Shown in pieces: positions 26,896 to 48,863 of a stretch of DNA of 64,000 bases. Position 1 is the first letter of the stretch; each line of letters starts with the position of its first letter. A program made the translations under genes and the position numbers. Below the pieces are notes generated by a model that was not told the DNA's origin, did no database searches, and was given only the letters and a program-made list of their open reading frames with translations. The stretch comes from Methylomarinovum caldicuralii (GTDB taxonomy: Bacteria > Pseudomonadota > Gammaproteobacteria > Methylococcales > Methylothermaceae): NCBI RefSeq assembly GCF_033126985.1, contig NZ_AP024714.1, positions 1,690,990-1,754,989 on the forward strand, in the 5' to 3' direction.

Positions 26896-28356
26896 TCACG
26901 GGCTTGCCACTGGAAGTGGTTGAGGTTCCGGCAGGGGCAGGCGGAAGGTGACCTCGCCCTCTGCCATGCCCTGGGCGCAGATGGTCCGCAGGGTCTGATA
27001 GACGCCGATCTTGAGGCGCTTGCAGGTTTCGACCAGCGACAGGATCATGGGTCGGAAGCAATCACCGCGATGCGACTGGCTGAAGAAACTGGTCTTGCGC
27101 CAGATGACATAGGGGCGTAGGGCACGCTCTGCCGTGTTGTTGGTCATCGGTACCCCGGGATGGTCCAGGAAGGTCCAGAACCTGGGAAAATCGTCCAACA
27201 ACTTGCGGCAGCTGCGACCGGTTTTGTTGTCGCCATGTCTTTGGGCGGCCTGTTCCAGTTCGCGCCGGAAGAGGGCTTTGAGGCGTTCCAATCGCCTTCG
27301 GTAGCGGTCGGATGGGTAATGGCTCTGTTGCCAGAGCTTGCCGCAGTGAACCGTCAGGCGGGCGGCCCGGAGCAGGCGTTCGCCATCTTCGCCGGCCTGT
27401 CCCTTGCGCCCGGCGATCCGTTCCAGGTTGCGGATGAGATGCGCCCAGCAGTATTGGTGTGAGTCCTGGGGATGGTCGTTGTAGGCCCCGTGGCGGTCGG
27501 TCACCAGGATCCCCTGGAAATCCCCCAACAGCTCACCGGCCGCACCCTTGCCGCGGGAATAATGGGTCAGGAAATACGCCATCTGATCGGTCGTCAGCGC
27601 CCACAGCCAATAGATGCTGCGGCCCCGGTAGGGGCGGGTCTCGTCGGCATGGGCGATCAGCGCTTTTCTGACCGCTTCGCCAATCTGGTTGTAGACCGGA
27701 CCCAGCCACGCCTGCAGCGGGATCTGGCTCTGGCTGATCGCCCCCAGGCTGAATCTCAGACCCCATTGTTCTTCCAGCAGCGCTTCGACTTCCCGCAGCG
27801 ACAGGTGATAGCGCCCCGTCATCAAGCCAATCCACGCCACCAGCCCAGGTCCCATCTGGCCGCGGGGCACCTCATCCGGTAGCCGCCCCTGGTGCTTCTG
27901 ACCACAACACCCACAGCGGCCTTCATACACCCGGTGTTCGACCACCCGGTAACGAATCTCGGGCAGGTCGAACACCTGATGGGGACGGAATCCCCGCACC
28001 GCCACCGACCCACCGCACTCACAGCGGCCATGGGGAAAGTAATGCCGGACCTCGTCCACTGCTTCTGCCGGAACCAGAGCCCGCTCGTGCCTGGGATGTC
28101 CCACCTGCGCCCCTTTCTTGCGTCCCGTCGGTCGCTTGCCCTTGCGCTCGGCGCGCTTCTTCGGGCTGTCCTGGGAAGGTGGTTGGGAGGAATTGTCGGA
28201 CCCCAAGGCCAACTGTTCCTCCAGTTCTTCCACTCGCGCCTGGATCTGCTGAAATTCTCCCAGCGCCCGCCAAAGCGCTTCGATCACCCGGTGGCATTCC
28301 TCCACCGTCCCGGGCAAGGGAGGTGGGCGGCTCAGGTCCAGATCAAGTCTTTCCAT
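26896..28356 (-). CDS. IS66-family transposase (copy A)
   Basis: The 486-residue transposase has an N-terminal coiled-coil/linker, a basic KKRAERKGKRPTGRKKGAQ block, a Cys-rich zinc-binding region (CECGG, CGCCGQKH), and an RNase-H core: IAHADETRPYRGRSIYW with the first D, GILVTDRHGAYND with the second D, and the C-terminal NNTAERALRPYVIWRKTS with the glutamate. As no TnpA or TnpB homologue lies beside it, the element belongs to the single-ORF (ISBst12-like) subgroup. The true start is the second ATG of ATGCGGGCCATGGAA: in copy B a 1-bp deletion puts the first ATG out of frame. Catalytic acids look intact. Confidence 0.9.
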   Translation of the reverse strand: MERLDLDLSRPPPLPGTVEECHRVIEALWRALGEFQQIQARVEELEEQLALGSDNSSQPPSQDSPKKRAERKGKRPTGRKKGAQVGHPRHERALVPAEAVDEVRHYFPHGRCECGGSVAVRGFRPHQVFDLPEIRYRVVEHRVYEGRCGCCGQKHQGRLPDEVPRGQMGPGLVAWIGLMTGRYHLSLREVEALLEEQWGLRFSLGAISQSQIPLQAWLGPVYNQIGEAVRKALIAHADETRPYRGRSIYWLWALTTDQMAYFLTHYSRGKGAAGELLGDFQGILVTDRHGAYNDHPQDSHQYCWAHLIRNLERIAGRKGQAGEDGERLLRAARLTVHCGKLWQQSHYPSDRYRRRLERLKALFRRELEQAAQRHGDNKTGRSCRKLLDDFPRFWTFLDHPGVPMTNNTAERALRPYVIWRKTSFFSQSHRGDCFRPMILSLVETCKRLKIGVYQTLRTICAQGMAEGEVTFRLPLPEPQPLPVASP

Positions 28357-28397
28357 GGCCCGCATTCTCCTGAATCTTCAGGCACTTGGCAAGACCG

Positions 28398-30384
28398 GCC
28401 GGGTGACCGCGGGCGATTGCTCACCCGCGGTTCCCACAGATCCGGACGTGCCCGATTAAGGCATCCGGCTCCTCGGACTATGGCGTCGCTACGCAACGGG
28501 AAATTCCGTGAACCACGCGCGGTGGGGGGAGTGGGTATCGTTTGTACAGCCGCCCAAAATGGTCCCGGTTCATCCGTTCCCGGTTGCGGCGGGACAACCA
28601 TTTGTACCAGCGCCGTCTGACCTCGTACAGGAAGCGGGCCAGCGATTGGCTGTTGCCGACGATCCCATAGTAGGCATAATGCCCCTTGAGTTTGCGGCTC
28701 AGGGCCGCTTGTTGGTCTGCAACCGGCCAGTGGCGGTGCATCCGGCACCAGTGGTTGATCGCCTGCAGGGAGCGGCTGAGCCGGGCTTGGGCGGTCTTGC
28801 GTTTGACGACCCAACGCCCTTTCCCTGAGCGTCCCCAGTAGTGGGTGAATCCCAGGTATTGGAAGCTCTGGCCTTTCCGTCCGGGTTTTCTGAAGTCGAG
28901 CAGGCGGGTTTTGTCCGGGTGCAGGCGCAGGCCGTATTTGGCCAGGCGCTTGCCCGGAACGGCCAATACCCGCCGGGCGTCTTCTTCCCGTTCGAACACC
29001 AGGACCGCATCGTCGGCGAACCGGACTTCGAAGGCGCTGCCTTGCAGTCGCGGTTTGACCGTCTGCTCGAACCACAGGTCGAGCACGTGATGCAGGTAGA
29101 GGTTGGCCAGCAGCGGGGAGATCACCCCACCTTGCGGTGTCCCTTGTTCGGGGTAGTGAAGCTGTCCGCTCTCCATGACGCCGGCATTCAGCCATTTACC
29201 GATCACGCGGCAGATCACGCCGTCGCGCACCCTCTGCCCCAGAAAGTTCCGCAGCCGGTCCCGGTCCACATCGTCGAAGAAGTTTTGGATGTCCAGGTCG
29301 ATGACCCAGCCACCGCCCATGGCCATCAGCCCGCCCCATAGCCTCTCCAGGGCCTGGTGGGCACTGCGTCCGGGCCGGAACCCGTAGGCGCAGTCGAGAA
29401 AGTCCTGCTCGAAGATGGGTTCCAGCGCCATCAGCACCGCCCGTTGCAGCACCTTGTCTTCCAGCGTGGGAATGCCGATCGGGCGGGTCTTTCCCGTTCC
29501 CGGCTTGGGCAGGTGGACGCGCCGTACCGCAGGCGCCCGATACCGGCCGGTCTTGAACCGTTCCAGCAGGCGCGTCAGGTTCTCCTCTAAGTCGGCTGCG
29601 TATTGGGATGCAGTCACGCCGTCCACCCCGGCGGCCCCGTCCTTGCGGGTGCGCCGCCAGGCTTCTTCCAGCCACACCACGTCGATGTGGTGGGCAATCG
29701 TGGTCAGTTCCAGCTTCGGTTCGATCCGGGCCAGTTCCGCTAGCTTCCGTTGTCGTGTTGAGATGTTCTCCTGGCTCGATGTCCCGGCCATCTGTCCCTC
29801 CGAAAGCCCCATCGTCCGACCTGCCGCTTCCCTCCATCGGGTCCCTTGGGGCAGGTTCCCCGACTTCCCAGGTACTATCGGCAGGCTCCGATTGCTCGAT
29901 CACCTTCCCAGCGCGCTTCGTCGCCTTCGCGCGCCGGTACCCTGCTTCGTGTCCCGTTCGCTCCCATCGGCCGGACACCGCTCCGATGGGCCTGGGCCTT
30001 TTCTCACACGGCGCCCGCACCGCTCTTCCCGCAAGGAGTGATCGAGCCCTCCCAGGTTCCTGGGCGACCCTTGCCCTGCATGCCCCGCTCTTCGACCCCG
30101 GCGGAGGGATGATGCCAGGCCAGTACAGCACCACCCCTGTTGCCTTCCGTCCGTTCAACAACGTCGGCTCCGCATTCCGTACTTTCGAGGCTCCATCACG
30201 CGGCCTACAGGCCCCCTGTGTACGCTTCGCAGTCGGGATCGCTCCTCGACCACGCAACACTCGGTTCCGGCTGGTGGCCAGCCTTGGCCGGACAGGACTT
30301 GCACCTGTCAGGTCGCTCTGAAGGTTTCAGCGATGTCTTTCCTTCTACATAACTTCCTCCTTCTCCAGGCTTGGCCTGGCGCAA
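28398..30384 (-). mobile_element. Group II intron, copy 1 (1,987 bp)
   Basis: The 5' end (minus strand) begins TTGCGCCAGGCCAAGCC; the 3' end shows a group II domain V (GAGCCGGATGCC...GGGCACGTCCGGAT, about 28433-28462) and a domain VI hairpin (ACCGCGGG/CCCGCGGT) with a bulged A. A reverse-transcriptase ORF lies in domain IV. The region 29813-30384 holds the ribozyme domains I-III and no gene. The intron interrupts the IS66 terminal repeat between CGTTCA and CGGTC. A candidate EBS1, TGAACG, is at intron nucleotides 228-233. The first base is T rather than the usual G. Confidence 0.9.
28478..29812 (-). CDS. Group II intron reverse transcriptase/maturase (copy 1)
   Basis: The 444-residue protein has RT blocks including [65 protein letters not shown] and the catalytic [10 protein letters not shown] (FADD). 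A C-terminal maturase X-like helical domain follows, but no HNH endonuclease domain is visible; such introns usually enter single-stranded DNA or replication forks. It is intact and could support splicing and retrohoming of both copies in the window. It differs from copy 2 by only a few residues (for example E/K after LVF, P/L in LAVPGK). Confidence 0.93.
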
Positions 30385-30395
30385 TGAACGGGTAC

Positions 30396-30867
30396 GTTCG
30401 GACTCGACCACGGCAAAGCAGGCCAGATCCGGCCAGCGCTGGGGCCGGTCCAGGCCGTCGAGCTGGTCGAACACATAGCAGCGGCGCACTTCCAGGCGAC
30501 CATGCGCCTTGTCGACCGTCTCGCATTGCTGATGTGGGGTTTTGTCCGGCGCGTCCTGGAAGGCTTGGAAGAAATCCCGGATCGATTCGGCCAGACCTTT
30601 CTGGTTGTCCTTGACCGCCAGTACATAGTCGGCCCCCCGGTCACGGATGGCCTTGGCAATCTTGGGATCGGTCCCCATGGCATCGAGGGTCACCACGCAT
30701 CCTTTCAAGGCCAGGGTCTCCAGCAGGGCGGGAATGGCCGTCTTCTCGTTGGATTTGTCGGCCACCGCCTCTTGACCGACCACCAACCGGTACTGAGCCG
30801 CAAAGGCACTGACCAGATGCAGGGGATCCTGCCCCTTGGACCGGCTACGCCGACTGTGAGGCGACAT
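30396..30867 (-). pseudogene. ISAs1-family transposase fragment (middle part)
   Basis: Residues equivalent to about 120-280 of an ISAs1 transposase are present: HSRRSRSKGQDPLHLVSAF, VVGQEAVADKSNEKTAIP, VVTLDAMGTDPKIAKAI and VVESERT, including the DDE-type aspartate of TLDAMG. Both ends are missing: the 3' side is cut by the IS66 left end at 30395, and the N-terminal part is replaced by the REP-containing segment. The frame that continues into the intron (to 30205) is not a real fusion protein. It cannot be active. Confidence 0.85.
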
Positions 30868-30891: not shown

Positions 30892-31111
30892 CAGGGCAAT
30901 CGCATGAACAGGGTCGAAAATGCGGGTCACCGGCCGGTACCGGTTCGTAGGCCGGATAAGGCGCGTCAAGCGCTGCATCCGGCATGCCTGGAGGACGCAT
31001 CGTGCCGGATGCGCTACGCTTATCCGGCCTACGGCGCGCTTGTTAGCCTTGTAACCCTATGATCTTTGAGTGGGCGTTCATTCATGCGATTGCCCTGATG
31101 CGATTGCCCTG
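30892..31111. repeat. Pair of ISAs1-type terminal repeats flanking a REP-bearing segment
   Basis: CAGGGCAATCGCATGAA (30892-30908) and its exact inverse TTCATGCGATTGCCCTG (31081-31097) bracket 206 bp, and most of the latter is repeated in tandem (31098-31111). The same repeat ends the ISAs1 remnant at 48847-48863. This is either a MITE-like derivative of the ISAs1 element or a hybrid left end. No gene is present between 30868 and 31180. Confidence 0.6.
30947..31032. repeat. REP/BIME-like palindromic pair
   Basis: Two inverted REP-like hairpins: GTAGGCCGGATAAGGCGCGT...GCATCCGGCA, then TGCCGGATGCGC...GCTTATCCGGCCTAC. Each has the GTAG foot and the CCGGAT/ATCCGG stem of enterobacterial REP sequences. 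No REP-associated (RAYT) transposase is visible in the window. Confidence 0.75.
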
Positions 31112-34435: not shown

Positions 34436-34673
34436 CACCCTATTACCCACATCTTCCCCCTTTTCATAGGAATCAATGTCTTATCCGTTTTCTCTGAGGG
34501 AACTTGATCTCGGCCGCCCGGATGGCGGTCACGGCCTCCACGTAGGCGCTCAGTTTGGTCATGCCCTGCCACAGGGCTTTGGGGCCGGGTGGGGGATCGT
34601 TTTTGCGCCCCAGCCAGCCGCCAAAGCCGGCCACAATGCGGACGATGGCGCCCAAATCCGGCGGCGTCGCGGG
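34436..34673 (-). pseudogene. IS4-family copy 2, transposase C-terminus only
   Basis: The left end (CACCCTATTACCC) and the last 66 or so codons (to RKRIRH) match the complete copy nearly base for base, with small differences (GAIVRI for GTIVRI, AIRAAEI for AIWAAEI). It is cut at 34673 by IS66 copy B. It cannot produce an active transposase. Confidence 0.9.
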
Positions 34674-36193
34674 GTACCCGTTCACGGTCTTGCCAAGTGC
34701 CTGAAGATTCAGGAGAATGCGGGCATGGAAAGACTTGATCTGGACCTGAGCCGCCCACCTCCCTTGCCCGGGACGGTGGAGGAATGCCACCGGGTGATCG
34801 AAGCGCTTTGGCGGGCGCTGGGAGAATTTCAGCAGCTCAAGGCGCGGGTGGAAGAACTGGAGGAACAGGTGGCCTTGGGGTCCGACAATTCCTCCCAACC
34901 ACCTTCCCGGGACAGCCCGAAGAAGCGCGCCGAGCGCAAGGGCAAGCGACCGACGGGACGCAAGAAAGGGGCGCAGGTGGGACATCCCAGGCACGAGCGG
35001 GCTCTGGTTCCGGCAGAAGCAGTGGACGAGGTCCGGCATTACTTTCCCCATGGCCGCTGCGAGTGCGGTGGGTCGGTGGCGGTGCGGGGATTCCGTCCCC
35101 ATCAGGTGTTCGACCTGCCCGAGATTCGTTACCGGGTGGTCGAACACCGGGTGTATGAAGGCCGCTGTGGGTGTTGTGGTGAGAAGCACCAGGGGCGGCT
35201 ACCGGATGAGGTGCCCCGCGGCCAGATGGGACCTGGGCTGGTGGCGTGGATTGGCTTGATGACGGGGCGCTATCACCTGTCGCTGCGGGAAGTCGAAGCG
35301 CTGCTGGAAGAACAATGGGGTCTGAAATTCAGCCTGGGGGCGATCAGCCAGAGCCAGATCCCGCTGCAGGCGTGGCTGGGTCCGGTCTACAACCAGATTG
35401 GCGAGGCGGCCAGAAAAGCGCTGATCGCCCATGCCGACGAGACCCGCCACTACCGGGGCCGCAGCATCTATTGGCTGTGGGCGCTGACGACCGATCAGAT
35501 GGCGTATTTCCTGACCCATTATTCCCGCGGCAAGGGTGCGGCCGGTGAGCGGTTGGGGGATTTCCAGGGGATCCTGGTGACCGACCGCCACGGGGCCTAC
35601 AACGACCATCCCCAGGACTCACACCAATACTGCTGGGCGCATCTCATCCGCAACCTGGAACGGATCGCCGGGCGCAAGGGACAGGCCGGCGAAGATGGCG
35701 AACGCCTGCTCCGGGCCGCCCGCCTGACGGTTCACTGCGGCAAGCTCTGGCAACAGAGCCATTACCCATCCGACCGCTACCGAAGGCGATTGGAACGCCT
35801 CAAAGCCCTCTTCCGGCGCGAACTGGAACAGGCCGCCCAAAGACATGGCGACAACAAAACCGGTCGCAGCTGCCGCAAGTTGTTGGACGATTTTCCCAGG
35901 TTCTGGACCTTCCTGGACCATCCCGGGGTACCGATGACCAACAACACGGCAGAGCGTGCCCTACGCCCCTATGTCATCTGGCGCAAGACCAGTTTCTTCA
36001 GCCAGTCGCATCGCGGTGACTGCTTCCGGCCCATGATCCTGTCGCTGGTCGAAACCTGCAAGCGCCTCAAGATCGGCGTCTATCAGACCCTGCGGACCAT
36101 CTGCGCCCAGGGCATGGCAGAGGGCGAGGTCACCTTCCGCCTGCCCCTGCCGGAACCTCAACCACTTCCAGTGGCAAGCCCGTGAACGGTAAC
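34674..36193 (+). mobile_element. IS66-family copy B (1,520 bp)
   Basis: It runs from GTACCCGTTCACGG to CGTGAACGGTAAC, both ends intact and no intron. It differs from copy D by a 1-bp deletion before the transposase start. No 8-bp target duplication is seen: the flanks are IS4 sequence in opposite orientations, indicating rearrangement after insertion. Confidence 0.92.
34725..36185 (+). CDS. IS66-family transposase (copy B)
   Basis: The 486-residue protein is almost identical to copy A, with small changes such as QQLKARVEELEEQ and DFQGILVTDRHGAYND preserved. All catalytic blocks (HADETRHYRGR, VTDRHGAYND, NNTAERALRP) are intact, as are both terminal repeats, so this is a candidate for an active copy. 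Here the upstream ATG is out of frame because one C is missing from GGGCCATGG, which fixes the start at 34725. The longer frame from 34476 is a chance fusion with IS4 sequence. Confidence 0.93.
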   Translation: MERLDLDLSRPPPLPGTVEECHRVIEALWRALGEFQQLKARVEELEEQVALGSDNSSQPPSRDSPKKRAERKGKRPTGRKKGAQVGHPRHERALVPAEAVDEVRHYFPHGRCECGGSVAVRGFRPHQVFDLPEIRYRVVEHRVYEGRCGCCGEKHQGRLPDEVPRGQMGPGLVAWIGLMTGRYHLSLREVEALLEEQWGLKFSLGAISQSQIPLQAWLGPVYNQIGEAARKALIAHADETRHYRGRSIYWLWALTTDQMAYFLTHYSRGKGAAGERLGDFQGILVTDRHGAYNDHPQDSHQYCWAHLIRNLERIAGRKGQAGEDGERLLRAARLTVHCGKLWQQSHYPSDRYRRRLERLKALFRRELEQAAQRHGDNKTGRSCRKLLDDFPRFWTFLDHPGVPMTNNTAERALRPYVIWRKTSFFSQSHRGDCFRPMILSLVETCKRLKIGVYQTLRTICAQGMAEGEVTFRLPLPEPQPLPVASP

Positions 36194-48620: not shown

Positions 48621-48752
48621 ATCCGCACCGCAGATCACCGCGCACACCACAACCACCAGCACTTCCACCAGATCGTAAGTTACCTTCGATGATTGTCGCG
48701 GGTCCGGAATCGATACGAACACCTCGCTCAGCGCCAGGGGCTTTTCCAACAT
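48621..48752 (-). pseudogene. ISAs1-family transposase, N-terminal fragment
   Basis: About 44 codons beginning MLEKPLALSEVFVSIPDP and running to VVVVCAVICGADV, a typical ISAs1 N-terminus, are cut by the right end of IS66 copy C. GGGAGG 7 bases before the ATG supports this start. The element's outer end, TTCATGCGATTGCCCTG, is at 48847-48863. The protein is far too short to act. Confidence 0.85.
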
Positions 48753-48863
48753 CTGTGCCTCCCACAAAAAGCATGCTCCTCAGAGAAGAGGTCTCTAATC
48801 TGCTGCAAGTCATCGAATCTTAAACCATCGTCTTCGTGGGGTGTATTCATGCGATTGCCCTGC

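Follow-up and report, generated by a model that had tools for sequence, protein, structure and literature searches.

A REP doublet between ISAs1-type ends in Methylomarinovum caldicuralii: probably a small mobile unit, now a single-copy relic

Can an insertion sequence carry REPs and, by its own transposition, spread them? The question is raised by an interval of 220 nt (30892-31111) within the 64,000-nt stretch of the Methylomarinovum caldicuralii genome analysed here (the window). A preliminary description read this interval as an E. coli-like REP pair inside ISAs1-type ends and proposed a non-autonomous element that spreads REPs through ISAs1 transposition. The arrangement itself is real: at 30892-31097, perfect 17-bp ISAs1-type ends enclose a GTAG-footed REP doublet (REPIN) in a unit of 206 bp, with CAGGGCAATCGCATGAA on the left (30892-30908, +) and, on the right, its perfect reverse complement (31081-31097). 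The interval contains three ISAs1 ends rather than two, the third being partial (14 nt, 31098-31111), and the window holds four matches to CAGGGCAATCGCATGAA at up to three mismatches against 0.30 expected, a count reached in none of 100 shuffles. The unit and its left-hand neighbours comprise:

30391-30856 (-, transposase strand): older ISAs1 fragment, IS positions 335-800, 98.7% identical over 466 nt; NF033564, 175.5 bits
30855-30891 (+): end of an IS21-like element, 36 of 37 nt common to locus L008, where it adjoins an IstA-like ORF
30892-30908 (+): left 17-bp ISAs1-type terminal inverted repeat, exact; 18 nt equal the left end of the 1,262-bp IS
30917-30946 (-): relic of the zapA 3' end (last codons), adjoining the REP1 foot; 22 of 30 nt agree with the zapA tail at locus A of M. 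tepidoasis
30947-30984 (+): REP1, GTAG-footed palindrome, of which about 36 nt are cleanly missing at locus A
31003-31032 (-): REP2, inverted partner of REP1 with a CTAC foot, forming a REPIN-like doublet with it
31033-31080 (+): 48-nt stretch from REP2 to the right end, common to two M. tepidoasis loci
31081-31097 (-): right 17-bp ISAs1-type terminal inverted repeat, exact; homology with M. tepidoasis ends at its outer edge
31098-31111 (-): 14-bp ISAs1 end piece, comparable to a 13-bp extra end beside IS copy L002

REP1 and REP2 stand head to head, with outer 15-nt arms that are 100% complementary; 38 nt of sequence lead from the left end to REP1, and a spacer of 18 nt parts the two REPs. Folded as DNA, the 220 nt reach -66.4 kcal/mol (z = -7.05), a stability equalled in 0 of 200 shuffles. 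With its GTAG foot, palindromic stem and inverted arrangement around a hairpin, the doublet is built like a REPIN.

The ends are those of a resident family. An exact search of the genome (one contig of 2,694,844 bases) gives 34 matches to the 17-mer and 0 to the reversed control pattern, and these ends bound complete elements of 1,253-1,262 bp (13 examined). Flanks match at 9-10 of 10 positions, as 10-bp duplications, in nine of the 13; at a further copy, L002 (C1:1840969-1842243), the duplication is visible only beyond a 13-bp extra piece of right end. The 10-bp duplication encloses that extra piece, which would fit transposition by way of the outer one of two tandem ends. The transposase at L009 matches NF033564 (ISAs1 family) with 412 bits against a cut-off of 70. 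Judged from its sequence, an intact-looking ISAs1 family, which we take to be of the DDE type, is present and could act in trans. Short paired-end units were also examined in other genomes of the genus (n = 15; 14 of 96-188 bp and one of 709 bp): in eight, the flanks agree at no fewer than 8 of 10 positions, compared with none of 870 control pairs pooled from these 15 units, the 13 full IS copies and two pairings in the window, and on this evidence short units with ISAs1 ends are mobile in the genus.

The window unit is likewise short and without a transposase gene. Its match to the resident 1,262-bp IS is confined to 18 nt on the left and 28 nt on the right, which led us to reject a simple internal deletion of that element, and the genome-wide count suggested in the preliminary description gives a single copy, which led us to reject a multi-copy MITE. 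The 8-10-bp target duplication also suggested there was not found at the unit: 3 of 10 flank positions agree whether or not the extra 14 bp are included, and a duplication hidden beyond these 14 bp was checked for and is absent. Among the features of an ISAs1 MITE, the unit thus shows ends identical to those of the autonomous element, small size and the lack of a transposase gene, and lacks a target duplication and several genomic copies; because of these last two it is a MITE-like relic, not a MITE member, and acts like a small ISAs1-mobilised passenger. The miniature ISAs1 elements of the genus, with 17-bp ends 96-188 bp apart and no transposase gene, are similar to it, but the window unit differs from them in having no duplication, no further two-ended copy, and a cargo of REP doublet plus zapA relic instead of a triplex-type repeat.

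Part of this cargo recurs in the sister species Methylomarinovum tepidoasis (G005, with plasmid NZ_AP024719.1). At locus A (L134, C1:743692-743800), similarity of 88% extends over 112 nt, starting shortly ahead of REP2 and running to the ISAs1 terminus, and thus covers window positions 31033-31080; about 36 nt of REP1 are cleanly missing, an indel bordered by the GTAG foot and almost exactly the size of one REP. The two sites are unrelated, with agreement at only 12 of 60 nt between locus A and the window outside the terminus. A third right end in the same genome (C1:853412-853453) has 42 nt in common at 95%, including part of the 48-nt stretch, and another flank again (22 of 60 nt versus the window, 15 of 60 versus locus A); its other half was not found in about 4.9 kb upstream. 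At all three sites the homology breaks off at the ISAs1 terminus, the pattern that moving ends leave behind. No left ISAs1 end was found at locus A, and the left inverted repeat is not common to the two loci; a unit with both ends and this cargo is known from the window alone.

The host-derived part of the cargo can be traced to zapA. At locus A, codons reading NLNRIVTRILQEDAS, the zapA 3' end, directly adjoin the REP foot and are followed by 6S RNA and an EVE-like gene (EVE, rpiA and cmoA being names that we presume from the ORFs). The intact zapA of M. caldicuralii (C1:655973) is likewise followed by 6S RNA and has no REP at its 3' end. The 30 nt beside REP1 in the window agree with the locus A zapA tail at 22 positions ungapped (73%), and the match of 17 of 25 observed at fixed register was reached by 2 of 200,000 shuffles. 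This match implies that host DNA, picked up at a zapA locus or close to one, is part of the window unit. The REP-zapA-tail junction is common to the window and locus A, and the same combination of end, REP and zapA-tail junction thus sits at a second, unrelated site in the sister species.

The zapA body of M. tepidoasis adjoins a 126-bp ISAs1 mini-element at locus B (L133, C1:937237-937362), whose outer flank, in reverse complement, equals the flank beside the locus A end (ccggcatcga). Such flanks would be expected had an inversion between A and B parted the two copies of a single 10-bp duplication. Together, the split duplication and the separation of zapA from 6S RNA suggest that about 193 kb of chromosome, bounded by two ISAs1-type elements, has been inverted. 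In one reading of locus A, a window-like unit (end, REPIN, zapA tail, end) would have recombined with the native zapA tail.

In the window, the unit lies in a graveyard of insertion sequences. Its left terminus abuts the 37-nt IS21-like end (a name we presume from the IstA-like ORF beside L008) without a spare base, and the ISAs1 fragment at 30391-30856 is cut on its left by a group II intron. The intron, with a reverse transcriptase/maturase, occupies 28478-30390 and is inserted in that fragment. Two near-identical transposase ORFs, presumably IS66-like, lie in opposite orientation at 26896-28365 and 34476-36185, the latter fused to another transposase tail, and a further ISAs1 remnant at 48621-48862 retains the last 253 IS positions at 92.9%. 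The 14-bp piece at 31098-31111 probably remains from an older ISAs1 copy that served as target. Adjacent deletions and recombination between insertion sequences are named as frequent causes of missing duplications in a passage of PMC11708052, and the missing duplication here would be explained most simply if the unit had inserted into an older ISAs1 copy, within its right end, and a deletion on the left side had followed.

We therefore favour, with a probability of roughly 0.55, the reading of 30892-31097 as a single-copy, non-autonomous ISAs1-ended relic, with the REPIN and the last codons of zapA as cargo, that moved as a unit and then probably decayed in the IS graveyard. A REPIN like those dispersed through this order would have joined a zapA 3' end and become enclosed by two ISAs1-type ends; the resident transposase, acting in trans on the 17-bp ends, would have moved the unit, which would have inserted 14 bp deep into the right end of an earlier ISAs1 copy; and a later deletion would have fused its left terminus to the IS21-like end, with loss of the left target duplication. 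The anatomy, the resident family with its 10-bp duplications and the homologous REP-plus-end unit in the sister species are observed; transposition as one unit, the target and the deletion are the parts that we infer. This reading draws on the exact ends of a resident ISAs1, the duplications at nine of 13 IS copies plus L002, the M. tepidoasis homology ending at the terminus, the common REP-zapA-tail junction, the A and B flanks resembling one split duplication, and the transposition of short ISAs1-ended units in the genus. It is weakened by the missing duplication, the single copy in M. caldicuralii, the lack of a left end at locus A, a left inverted repeat not common to the two loci, and a zapA similarity of 73% over 30 nt.

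The strongest competitor, to which we give a smaller but substantial weight, is coincidence: a chromosomal REPIN beside a rearranged zapA tail would have come to lie between two independent ISAs1 end relics, the segment having arrived by recombination and deletion and never moved as one unit. The missing duplication agrees with such a history, as do the pile of IS and intron pieces in the region, the lack of a left end at locus A and the evidence there that recombination at ISAs1 elements reshaped the segment. It accounts less well for homology that stops at the terminus in the window, at locus A and at the third M. tepidoasis site, with differing outer flanks, or for two complete termini in the window that meet unrelated DNA exactly.

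The origin of the REP doublet bears on the remaining alternatives. Its stem motif GTAGGCCGGATAAG occurs exactly twice in the M. caldicuralii genome, both times inside the unit, and no dispersed REP population was found there, with 21 matches at up to two mismatches against 20 for the control. Nor did a search of this genome with PF01797, following the earlier suggestion to look for RAYT genes, find a Y1 transposase (0 matches). The doublet thus has REPIN structure but neither a population nor a RAYT. Y1 transposases (PF01797) are present in 257 of 301 genomes of the order-level set, and this abundance is compatible with a second alternative, in which the doublet entered a pre-existing ISAs1 mini-element by RAYT-driven insertion before the mini-element moved or decayed. 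The indel between the window and locus A, about one REP in size with its edge at the GTAG foot, would suit such an insertion; simple deletion of REP1 at locus A accounts for it equally. Against it also stand the lack of a Y1 gene in M. caldicuralii and the zapA tail adjoining the REP foot at both loci, by which REP and zapA were joined before the copies parted, and we regard it as improbable. Flanks of Y1 genes in genus mates, scanned for GTAG hairpins at seven loci, were little informative, a convincing Y1 frame being seen only at L150 and L153.

At E <= 1e-4 the REP query matches 35 of the 301 order-level genomes, mostly via REP2; the 34 besides M. caldicuralii reach up to 97% over 31 nt, and the best match of the REP unit lies in the same genus (88% over 112 nt). 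Horizontal transfer from enterobacteria is therefore very improbable and an E. coli origin was rejected, even though 5,375 of 5,426 E. coli genomes match the query, with best rows of 75-83% over 40-45% of its length and none among the 5,426 over 80% of it. The label "E. coli-like" stands at family level, the nearest relatives being in the same order. Phage and plasmid collections gave partial REP matches only, none over 80% of the query, and a contig scan pairing the unit with its neighbouring gene returned one distant, uninformative locus.

Whether ISAs1 ends accompany REPs elsewhere was surveyed at up to four mismatches. At order level (30 loci of 63 listed matches), the window unit has both ends and its M. 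tepidoasis homologue one; the other 28 loci have no paired ISAs1 ends, and three of them have a lone 4-mismatch resemblance to an end more than 300 bp away. Within the genus, stem matches at up to one mismatch number 10 in 10 genomes, of which two belong to the unit itself and one to the M. tepidoasis homologue; no ISAs1 end was found at the other seven, some of which are chance matches because a control pattern gave nine matches in the same search. By eye, L158 (G022), L160 (G034), L161 (G042), and L164 and L165 (both in M. tepidoasis) look like REP hairpins, and L163 and L159 do not. REPs are, on this survey, rare in Methylomarinovum and not usually linked to ISAs1. The proposal that ISAs1 transposition spreads REPs is not supported: the survey, which takes up the refuting condition given in the preliminary description, speaks largely against it, the unit is single-copy, the only other case is the homologous M. 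tepidoasis copy, and there is no sign of amplification of REPs by this route. The REP gives the impression of having been carried by accident in a small, now dead transposon.

Other palindromes also lie between ISAs1 ends. The motifs CCCTCTCCC or GGGAGAGGG occur at up to one mismatch in 12 of the 15 short units. They form the palindrome inside mini-elements of 96-188 bp, many with 10-bp duplications, at L085-L092, L095 and L102-L104 (G030, G012, G034). Across 17 distinct palindrome places (30 loci of 88 listed matches), an ISAs1 end was seen on both sides at six, on one side at six and on neither at five, one of the last lying at a contig edge; the paired cases include weak ones (L178, five mismatches at each end; L174 and L189, four at one end). 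At least one end thus accompanies 12 of the 17, with 0.11 end-like matches expected per 520 bp. The motif resembles the intrastrand triplex repeats treated in part of PMC4666352, a passage of which reports that no mobility functions were found near such repeats in E. coli. We suggest only tentatively that the ISAs1-type ends of Methylomarinovum may be a general vehicle for structure-forming palindromes, with a GTAG REPIN and host DNA as cargo here and triplex-type repeats carried and multiplied in the sister genomes.

The window doublet resembles the GTAG-type REPs and REPINs described in passages of PMC3733652 and PMC3116915 in its foot, its stem and its head-to-head hairpin arrangement; it differs in being single-copy, without a RAYT and enclosed by IS ends. 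A passage of PMC3733652 places Escherichia REPs in GTAG-3 and mentions that some REP dimers lie inside longer palindromes; from that text and the E. coli REP matches, the window doublet may belong to GTAG-3 as well. A keyword search of the open-licence PMC literature found no paper on GTAG REPs inside ISAs1 ends. A physical link between IS and REP is also reportedly seen in Pseudomonas putida, where ISPpu9 is inserted in REPs (PMC8450116); there the IS lies inside the REP, whereas here the REP lies inside IS ends. The locus provides a worked case of how an unrelated insertion sequence can capture and carry a RAYT-type repeat, and warns against taking every REP between IS ends for a REP-spreading element. 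The triplex-type repeats inside ISAs1 mini-elements with duplicated flanks bear on the dispersal of these widespread repeats, which, if the vehicle idea is true, would gain a transposition route.
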